Shown: positions 16,788-26,579 of the stretch, in pieces
Numbering within the stretch: the first letter of the stretch is position 1
Layout of the letters: each line of letters starts with the position of its first letter
Source: Chitinophagaceae bacterium
GTDB lineage: Bacteria > Bacteroidota > Bacteroidia > Chitinophagales > UBA10324
Direction of reading: 5' to 3'
DNA: 38,587 bases
NCBI GenBank assembly: GCA_947474435.1
Contig: CANJII010000029.1
Span: forward strand, 1-38,587
The notes under the pieces: generated by a model
Told to the model about the DNA's origin: nothing
Database searches by the model: none
Seen by the model: the letters and a program-made list of their open reading frames with translations, nothing else
Made by a program: the position numbers and the translations under genes

Positions 16788-16831
16788 GATTTGCCGGTTT
16801 TTTTATCTTAAGAAAATAAAACCGGCAAATC
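16788..16831. promoter_or_regulatory. Large inverted repeat upstream of the MNT gene
   Basis: Arms GATTTGCCGGTTTT (16788-16801) and AAAACCGGCAAATC (16818-16831) are perfect 14-base inverted repeats around an A/T centre that itself contains CTTAAG. The element ends 48 bases before the chosen ATG of the MNT gene, where an autoregulatory operator of a toxin-antitoxin pair could sit. It could equally be another dispersed palindrome, since REP-like repeats surround it. Confidence 0.5.
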
Positions 16832-24603: not shown

Positions 24604-24611
24604 TACTTTTG
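24604..24611 (+). promoter_or_regulatory. -7 box TACTTTTG before ispG
   Basis: TACTTTTG is an exact TAnnTTTG box ending 6 bases before the ATG at 24618. A start of transcription at the usual distance would give a leader of only a few bases. No convincing -33 box is seen at the right spacing. Confidence 0.45.
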
Positions 24612-24617
24612 CCTTCA

Positions 24618-26579
24618 ATGAAAATTTCTGATAAAAAGTATTGTAACAGCTTAACGGCTTATTCAAGATTTCTTACCCGTGAAGTAATGATTGGTAATGT
24701 TGGAATCGGCGGCAAAAATCCCATTCGATTGCAAAGCATGACTACAACAGATACTATGAATACCATTGCTACTGTTGAGCAAAGTATTAAAATGATTGAG
24801 GCAGGTTGTGAACTCGTGCGCATCACTGCACCAAGTATTAATGAAGCAAAGAATTTAGAAAACATAAAAAAGGAATTGCTCGCACGCGGATATAAAATTC
24901 CGTTGATTGCCGATATCCATTTTACTCCAAATGCTGCAGAAGTAGCTGCACGAATTGTAGAGAAGGTGAGAGTGAATCCCGGAAACTTCGCCGACAAGAA
25001 AAAATTTCAATCGCTCGAATACACCGATGGGGAATACAATGAAGAGTTGGAGCGCATCAGAGAAAAATTTTCTCCACTTGTAAAAATTTGCAAGGAGTAT
25101 GGAACTGCCATGCGCATCGGCACCAATCATGGTTCTCTTAGCGATAGAATTATGAGTCGCTATGGCGATTCTCCAAAGGGAATGGTGATGAGTGCTTTTG
25201 AATTTCTGGATATTGCTGAAGACCTCGGCTATCAGAATATCGTGCTGAGCATGAAATCGAGCAACACGCAGGTGATGGTGCAGGCTTATCGATTACTTGT
25301 GCATGAGATGATGAAGACCGGACGGAATTATCCATTGCATCTTGGAGTAACTGAAGCCGGTGATGGTGAAGATGGAAGAATAAAATCAGCTATCGGAATC
25401 GGAACTTTACTGGAAGATGGATTGGGTGATACCATTCGCGTATCACTCACCGAAGATCCTGAGTTTGAAATTCCGGTTGCGAAAATTTTGGCTGACCGGT
25501 ATTCTGAAAAAAGACAAACTCCTGTTGTTCCTTCCATCAAAGAAAATCCGATTGACCCGTTTCATTATTCAAGAAGAGAAACCATTGCAATAAAAAATAT
25601 TGGCGTGCACAAAGTTCCTGTTGTAGTTGCTGATTGCAGTGCGGAACGAAACATTTCTCATGCATCATTTATTCCGCTTGGTTATAGTTACGATGAAGCA
25701 AGTGACAAATGGAACATCAGTGATACTGCCGCAGATTATATCTATACCGGAATTCATAAAGTTGATTTTGAAATCCCTGGAACTCTTGGGTTGATTCAGA
25801 ATTATAAAGCGTGGCGTGAAAAGACCGACGCGGTTTTAAAAACCGCGTCGGTCTCTCAAACCTTCAATTACTTTCCGCTATTAACTGCAACAGAATTTAT
25901 AACTGAAACAATTTTATCCCCATCATTAAATTTTATAAAAATTTCATTGGATGAATTTTCTGATTCGTTTTTGGAAAAATTAGAAGAGCAAAAAAATTGC
26001 GTACTGGTTATTTCTTCCACCCACATAAATGGAATGATGCATCAACGAAGATTATTTTTTGAATTGCTGAATGAAAAAAACTCGTGCCCGGTAATTATCA
26101 AGCGCGAATACAATAATTTATCTTCTGATGAACTCTCACTTCATTCCGCAACAGATTTTGGTGCGTTGTTGTTAGATGGATTTGGTGATGGCATTTGGCT
26201 GAAAGCCGATAATCAACTTTCGCAAAATGTAAATCGCTTGTGTTTCGGAATTTTACAGGGTTGCCGTCAGCGCATTTCGAAAACCGAATACATCAGTTGC
26301 CCGAGTTGCGGTCGCACACTTTTTGATTTGCAGGAAACCACTGCGAAAATTCGTGCAGTCACCAATCATTTGAAAGGAATGAAGATTGCCATTATGGGAT
26401 GCATAGTAAATGGTCCAGGCGAAATGGCTGATGCTGATTACGGTTATGTGGGAAGCGGCCCCGGAAAAATTACTTTATACAAAGGGAAAGATATTATGAA
26501 GCGAAGCATTAATACCGAAACTGCTGTTGATGAATTAATAAATCTGATAAAGGAGAATGGTGATTGGGTGGAGGGCTGA
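24618..26579 (+). CDS. ispG: (E)-4-hydroxy-3-methylbut-2-enyl-diphosphate synthase, long form
   Basis: The 653-residue enzyme acts in the MEP isoprenoid pathway, converting MEcPP to HMBPP with a [4Fe-4S] cluster. The N-terminal TIM barrel has IRLQSMTTTDTMNTIATVEQ, CELVRITAPS, PLIADIHFTPN and RIGTNHGSLS. The C-terminal iron-sulphur domain has ISCPSCGRTLFDLQ (two cluster Cys), MGCIVNGPGEMADADYGYVG (third Cys) and KITLYKGK. Between them is the extra A* domain of about 260 residues found in Bacteroidota, Chlamydia and plant enzymes. ATG at 24618 is used; the TTG at 24609 would add three residues. A perfect 33-base palindrome lies in frame in the A* domain at residues about 402-413. The gene stands alone on its strand, divergent from the T9SS gene. 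Confidence 0.97.
   Translation: MKISDKKYCNSLTAYSRFLTREVMIGNVGIGGKNPIRLQSMTTTDTMNTIATVEQSIKMIEAGCELVRITAPSINEAKNLENIKKELLARGYKIPLIADIHFTPNAAEVAARIVEKVRVNPGNFADKKKFQSLEYTDGEYNEELERIREKFSPLVKICKEYGTAMRIGTNHGSLSDRIMSRYGDSPKGMVMSAFEFLDIAEDLGYQNIVLSMKSSNTQVMVQAYRLLVHEMMKTGRNYPLHLGVTEAGDGEDGRIKSAIGIGTLLEDGLGDTIRVSLTEDPEFEIPVAKILADRYSEKRQTPVVPSIKENPIDPFHYSRRETIAIKNIGVHKVPVVVADCSAERNISHASFIPLGYSYDEASDKWNISDTAADYIYTGIHKVDFEIPGTLGLIQNYKAWREKTDAVLKTASVSQTFNYFPLLTATEFITETILSPSLNFIKISLDEFSDSFLEKLEEQKNCVLVISSTHINGMMHQRRLFFELLNEKNSCPVIIKREYNNLSSDELSLHSATDFGALLLDGFGDGIWLKADNQLSQNVNRLCFGILQGCRQRISKTEYISCPSCGRTLFDLQETTAKIRAVTNHLKGMKIAIMGCIVNGPGEMADADYGYVGSGPGKITLYKGKDIMKRSINTETAVDELINLIKENGDWVEG
25822..25854. 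repeat. Perfect palindrome within ispG coding sequence
   Basis: Arms AGACCGACGCGGTTTT (25822-25837) and AAAACCGCGTCGGTCT (25839-25854) are perfect 16-base inverted repeats around a single A. The total of 33 bases equals 11 codons, read as part of KTDAVLKTASVS. Its GC-rich arms stand out from the AT-rich surroundings. A hairpin this long in a coding region is not expected by chance. Confidence 0.9.

Follow-up and report, generated by a model that had tools for sequence, protein, structure and literature searches.

The DNA analyzed here (hereafter the window, 38,587 nt at its full length) belongs to a Chitinophagaceae bacterium and carries on its forward strand, at 24609..26579, the long form of ispG (gcpE; Pfam PF04551, E = 1.3e-126), the translation of which starts at either a TTG at 24609 or an ATG at 24618. 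Like ligA, which is considered below, ispG is an essential gene. Within it lies, at 25822..25854, a perfect palindrome of 33 bp (no strand being assigned to it), which we refer to as family A. Its left arm, AGACCGACGCGGTTTT (25822..25837), and its right arm, AAAACCGCGTCGGTCT (25839..25854), both reported on the forward strand by an inverted-repeat scan, are 16 nt long and 100% complementary, and are separated by a single A (16+1+16). The element amounts to 11 codons, read in ispG as (K)TDAVLKTASVS, and corresponds to residues 402-412 counted from the ATG, in agreement with the placement at about 402-413 in the original prediction. That prediction had also described a perfect palindrome lying in frame in ispG, with GC-rich arms amid AT-rich DNA, and both statements are borne out, the GC content being 0.55 in the element and 0.34 in the 200 bp on either side. 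From base composition, only about 1.5e-4 inverted repeats with arms of at least 16 nt and a loop of at most 5 nt are expected in the window. The ispG copy is the single member of family A in the window, where longer inverted repeats also exist: one at 37520-37553 with perfect arms of 17 nt, and two with 22-nt arms that contain mismatches. Long inverted repeats outside family A were noted at 37520-37553, 35081-35127 and 16788-16831.

The palindrome falls into a linker of variable length (25809..25871, forward strand), the limits of which, from a conserved W to F/YFP, were read from our own alignment. This linker belongs to the middle part of IspG, outside the solved short IspG structures; the best solved structure, 3noy, matches residues 21-292 and 546-648 only and leaves the palindrome region outside. 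In an AlphaFold model computed with 27 sequences (pLDDT 87.5), the insert forms the end of a helix (396-409) together with a stretch of pLDDT under 50 (410-413), which precedes a strand at 418-423. As the 11 codons are in frame and without a stop, it might be supposed that the 11 residues serve IspG itself. This is extremely unlikely, since the model confidence is low at 410-413, a near-identical peptide occurs in MnmG, and the 11 residues are missing from all 29 other IspG orthologue loci aligned (L046 only in part), as the original prediction had anticipated for relatives. The same 29 loci rule out a conserved IspG motif, and two congeners, G001 and G003, have a linker of 10 residues at the position of the insert.

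At the RNA level, the palindrome is predicted to form a strong hairpin (-26.1 kcal/mol, z -7.2), and ispG is presumably translated with the hairpin in place. A hairpin retained for an action in ispG RNA or DNA, such as attenuation, mRNA stability or protein binding, would be in line with this prediction as well as with the presence, in three congeners, of a hairpin of another family at the same place in ispG. We nevertheless regard such a role as highly improbable, because no such hairpin is found at the linker in G001, G003 and 24 other orthologue loci, the copies in mnmG, ligA and intergenic regions have no gene function in common, and no Rfam family matches at the palindrome, tRNA being the only Rfam match in the window.

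The 33-mer recurs in this genome, in accordance with the original prediction and excluding that it occurs only once. With up to three mismatches it is found at 8 places, 3 of them exact (0 in the reversed-pattern control), while a generic pattern with up to two mismatches finds 9 places, adding copies on contigs C43 and C10, and a relaxed scan adds one on C42, so that the union of the scans gives the modest number of about 11 family-A copies. Two further copies lie in frame in housekeeping genes, namely mnmG and ligA, and a fourth lies near the start of a HlyD-like ORF, the start codon of which is uncertain; the remaining ones are intergenic or within short ORFs. The ispG and mnmG copies give the same peptide (EKTDAVLKTASVS), and the ligA copy is read in another frame. 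Across six members of the genus (G000 to G005), the inner 15-mer with at most one mismatch occurs 17, 5, 13, 8, 7 and 7 times, not all of which are true copies, and its controls occur 3, 0, 0, 2, 2 and 1 times; an exact-pattern scan of the genomes of the order detected no exact class member in G001 and G003.

Orthologues from the same genus are devoid of the insert in all cases that could be compared, i.e. 5/5 for ispG, 3/3 full-length ones for mnmG and 5/5 for ligA. The mnmG insert adds 20 aa relative to G001, G003 and G004 (96-97% identity) and the ligA insert adds 19 aa relative to the five congeners (93-96% identity). In DNA alignments, the palindrome is missing in 8/8 mnmG loci, two of which belong to another genus and contain a long linker of a different kind, and in all 11 alignable ones of 12 ligA loci; the mnmG search gave no match in G005, G009 and G012 and only a fragment in G002. 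The inserts in these three genes, being absent in orthologues of the same genus, are therefore insertions. Those in mnmG and ligA are longer than 33 bp, with a half copy located 15 bp (mnmG) and 21 bp (ligA) upstream of the palindrome.

Half copies adjoin the palindromes in mnmG, ligA and the HlyD-like ORF and point to rearrangement in situ. Together with the perfect arms, they could be taken as signs that template switching during replication (quasi-palindrome correction) generated the palindrome locally, with no mobile unit involved; such correction could also keep the arms identical and explain the covariation of the core described below. However, unrelated loci of this genome share the 33-mer, three of them exactly, it also occurs in other genomes, and no precursor half-arm was seen at the ispG, mnmG and ligA sites of the congeners. 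The exact copies at unrelated loci largely refute an origin by template switching, which is thus very unlikely. The original prediction of a mobile palindrome inserted in a tolerant loop with the frame intact is supported instead, its mobility being deduced from dispersal and from presence and absence among relatives.

The ispG linker at 25809..25871 contains family A in this genome, is empty in two congeners, and in three sister species is occupied at the same site by an unrelated hairpin, family B (GTTGTTGGT..ACCAACAAC plus a one-sided GGCGG). In these three (G005, G004 and G002; loci L019, L020 and L021) the hairpin, GTTGTTGGTG-AAAA-CACCAACAAC or GTTGTTGGTC-AGGC-GACCAACAAC, directly follows W-x-E. 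In the tree of ispG and ligA, G000 stands beside G002, G004 and G005 (UFBoot 67 and 51); at ispG, family B may have come first, in the ancestor of this genome, and then been replaced, or the two may represent independent insertions. With at most two mismatches, family B occurs at 13, 0, 17, 5, 9 and 6 places in G000 to G005 (controls: 1, 0, 0, 2, 0 and 1), and the first three bases of its one-sided GGCGG are conserved in 35, 40 and 37 of 42 aligned copies. In this genome it lies in frame in pyrD, cysS, ispD, an ABC-3 permease gene and a UbiD-type decarboxylase ORF, in the last of which it sits beyond the part matched by the family profile. The peptides VVGENTNNGG or VVGQATNNGG were observed as its in-frame translations in pyrD, cysS, ispD and other genes; the family as a whole has about 42 copies in G000 to G005. 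One loop of pyrD holds yet another palindrome, family D (LTPNPSPKERG), in this genome (L259:835-1938) and family B in G004 (L295:1099-2172), while a second pyrD loop holds family B here and is empty in G004; family D occurs at 13, 0, 13, 0, 12 and 10 places in G000 to G005 (control: 0). Moreover, the ispG gene of L043, from another family of the order, contains a 33-bp palindrome of family C elsewhere in the same middle part. Family C was found in 3 of 298 genomes, and none of its other copies that were read (L302-L312) lies inside an ORF of at least 120 aa. The middle part of ispG has thus taken at least three unrelated palindromes (families A, B and C). Palindromic stretches were also noticed in the IspG genes of L030 and L046.

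The family-A palindrome belongs to a wider class with the consensus AGACC-N5-GGTTTT-N-AAAACC-N5'-GGTCT, which is strictly symmetric and has a 5-bp core specific to a genome or lineage. Of the 298 genomes from the order, 27, this one included, contain exact matches to the pattern GACC-N5-GGTTTT-N-AAAACC-N5-GGTC (control: 0), and a scan of GTDB species genomes returned at least 118 stretches; among the 80 listed, 47 have Bacteroidota titles and 33 have others, the latter including Methylococcales, Thiotrichaceae, Desulfobacterota, Geobacteraceae, Chloroflexota, Calditrichaceae and a cyanobacterium. The phyla of the listed matches were assigned from record titles. Boundaries and cores were analyzed for the loci L067-L092 and L111-L190, which provide 113 distinct sites. 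The N5 core is fully complementary in 94 of them, where about 0.1 is expected, and has one mismatch in 11, two in 6 and three in 2; 124 of 146 full 33-mers (137 loci) are perfect. An A is present at -1 in 108 sites and a T at +1 in 106, and there is no conservation beyond. These sharp ends and covarying cores indicate a unit of exactly 33 bp, in which a framework conserved across phyla encloses a self-complementary core that is free to vary. A foot, tag or guide tetranucleotide (GT[AG]G or CGTC) was not detected, no base being conserved beyond -1/+1 in the 113 sites and no 4-mer recurring in the 146. Nor was a clear target-site duplication, a feature of MITEs, found: repeats of 3-8 bp are not in excess, and 2-bp direct repeats are slightly so (17 vs 8.5 in shuffles, with a shuffle maximum of 18). 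As only 13 of the 113 sites lie entirely inside an ORF of at least 120 aa, the class is mostly intergenic. In one genome, four family-A palindromes follow one another at intervals of exactly 294 bp, in the manner of a tandem array (G103:C15:175346-176258).

Members of this class adjoin Y1 transposase genes with an NHFH motif, with a copy on each side in L132 (from Aquimarina amphilecti), L160 and L196, and ORFs of RAYTs (REP-associated tyrosine transposases) with an in-frame palindrome inside were found in L070, L147, L160, L189 and L196. When a RAYT of G002 was used as the query, a homologue was detected in 13 of 144 family-A loci vs 1 of 116 other loci; 12 of these 13 are located within 150 bp of a copy, compared with 5.9 expected by random placement (P ~1e-4), part of this adjacency being the RAYT ORF itself containing the palindrome. 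This homology search replaced a stricter HuH motif filter, by which only four ORFs were found in family-A loci; each of them lies close to a copy, against an expectation of 1.7 (P 0.03). Ten RAYT-like proteins match the NCBIfam family REP_Tyr_transpos with E values of 1e-10 to 1e-17, all below its 80-bit cut-off. In L160:1272-2741 and L196:5712-7184, the RAYT domain, by our reading of the sequence, continues through the palindrome into an apparent coproporphyrinogen oxidase, as if two genes had been fused across the palindrome.

A search with PF01797 identified three Y1-transposase genes in this genome, which were rejected as the RAYT of family A, no family-A copy being near any of them. By our reading of their size, two of the proteins look like the IS200 type. 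When two of the Y1 proteins of this genome served as queries, homologues in the class loci were not detected at E 1e-3, whereas the NHFH motif and the G002 query did find RAYTs there. The third (contig C60, L343:12479-13072) matches REP_Tyr_transpos and is RAYT-like; its gene lies 42 bp from the contig end and is preceded by another hairpin, CCCCGCCGTGTC..GACACGGTGGGG, half of which is repeated at the contig end. A RAYT flanked by its own AGACCGACGCGG palindromes was not found in this genome by the PF01797-based search, and since PF01797 hardly detects NHFH-type RAYTs, one may have been missed. On either side of the G002 RAYT (L285:5813-6604) stands a 33-bp palindrome that belongs to a different family (AACTTTTCC...), whereas family A lies at a distance of 3.5-4.3 kb. 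It is conceivable that the element depends for its movement on some system different from RAYTs, and that its RAYT neighbourhood reflects a shared tolerance of intergenic space. The lack of a family-A/RAYT pair among the three Y1 genes of this genome would agree with this, as would the absence from the class of the GT[AG]G foot of canonical REPs, as these are described in PMC6006769. We consider it unlikely, however, since family-A loci contain RAYT homologues far more often than control loci do, and most of these homologues lie next to a copy, with one on both sides in several cases.

Taken together, comparison of the sequences establishes that the family-A copy was inserted, orthologues being without it, that it is dispersed in this genome and its congeners, and that its class adjoins RAYTs elsewhere. 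We are fairly confident that the ispG palindrome represents a short, dispersed repeat of REP-like type, one copy of which lies inside this gene, and that the repeat is mobilized in trans by a RAYT and is tolerated in a variable loop. Speaking against this are the absence of family-A copies beside the three Y1 genes found here, the distance of family A from the G002 RAYT, the scores of the ten RAYT-like proteins under the NCBIfam cut-off, the failure to detect a guide tetranucleotide or a clear target-site duplication, the longer mnmG and ligA inserts with their half copies, the share of RAYT adjacency that stems from a RAYT ORF containing the palindrome, and the lack of exact class members in G001 and G003. 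A RAYT, as a HuH single-strand transposase, would recognize the hairpin and copy or move it in trans, and the copies landing in genes would survive solely in tolerant loops. In ispG, the frame was kept because 33 bp equal 11 codons, which are free of stops as read here, and the insertion would have been tolerated because these codons fall into a variable loop; the enzyme would thereby have gained an 11-residue loop without a needed function. As a bolder proposal, which we hold to be rather less probable than its negation, the footless, fully symmetric, exactly 33-bp REP class of several phyla, with its own RAYTs, might constitute a frame-neutral mobile unit that embeds itself in proteins, its core co-evolving with the RAYT in each lineage, and loops of housekeeping enzymes (ispG and pyrD) might be docking sites for unrelated palindrome families in sister species and a recurrent source of new protein loops.

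The in-frame palindromes in housekeeping genes of this Bacteroidota-like genus, whose sites are cleanly empty in sister species, bear on which loops accept peptides and how, and the widespread symmetric 33-mer tied to RAYT genes offers, through its covarying cores, a test case for concerted change of transposase and repeat. Annotators should be aware that translated repeats can be the source of peptides such as KTDAV.KTASVS, VVGENTNNGG and DLxGFxNLxGL. Among openly licensed PMC papers, none was found for the core strings or the peptides, which may still have been published.

The original prediction knew of no described Bacteroidota counterpart, which holds only in part. REPs are reported to occur inside tnpA-REP genes without loss of frame, in a subclass abundant in Cyanobacteria and Bacteroidetes (PMC6006769), and within ORFs of many bacteria, Bacteroidetes being among the hosts of CGTC repeats (PMC3733652). 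As a dispersed palindrome of 33 bp with about 11 copies, family A is within the 20-40 bp of a canonical REP, and the flanking of a RAYT by the repeat was observed for the class (12/13 within 150 bp) but not for the variant of this genome; the foot or tag tetranucleotide at one end is absent. Canonical and double-foot REPs, as presented in PMC6006769, have a 5' GT[AG]G foot, whereas family A is footless and fully symmetric. It resembles TnpA-REP/RAYT subclasses 2.4 and 2.6 of that paper: there too, in Bacteroidetes and other phyla, NHxH-type Y1 genes are accompanied by short hairpins, which have further copies in the same genome, among them ones lying in frame within tnpA-REP genes. Subclass 2.6 is said there to have 'atypical structures', and family A, to go by the descriptions, may be identical to these. 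The palindromic elements of Rickettsia described in PMC10969869 likewise are palindromic units of several families lying in frame in unrelated housekeeping genes, but they are ~150 bp long, whereas family A has 33 bp with sharp ends, has RAYTs nearby and is mostly intergenic outside this genus; it works like a Rickettsia palindromic element yet is not one. The GTAG/CGTC REPs of PMC3733652 are also found inside ORFs, including that of a DNA ligase (O. terrae), and different REPs occupy about the same recB site in two Xanthomonas species, which parallels the same-site use reported here; they carry an unpaired terminal GTAG or CGTC, whereas family A has no conserved terminal tag. Intragenic REPs, even same-site cases, are therefore already published, and what is new is the footless symmetric class, the covariation of its core and the finding that, in congeners, unrelated families have occupied one and the same site.
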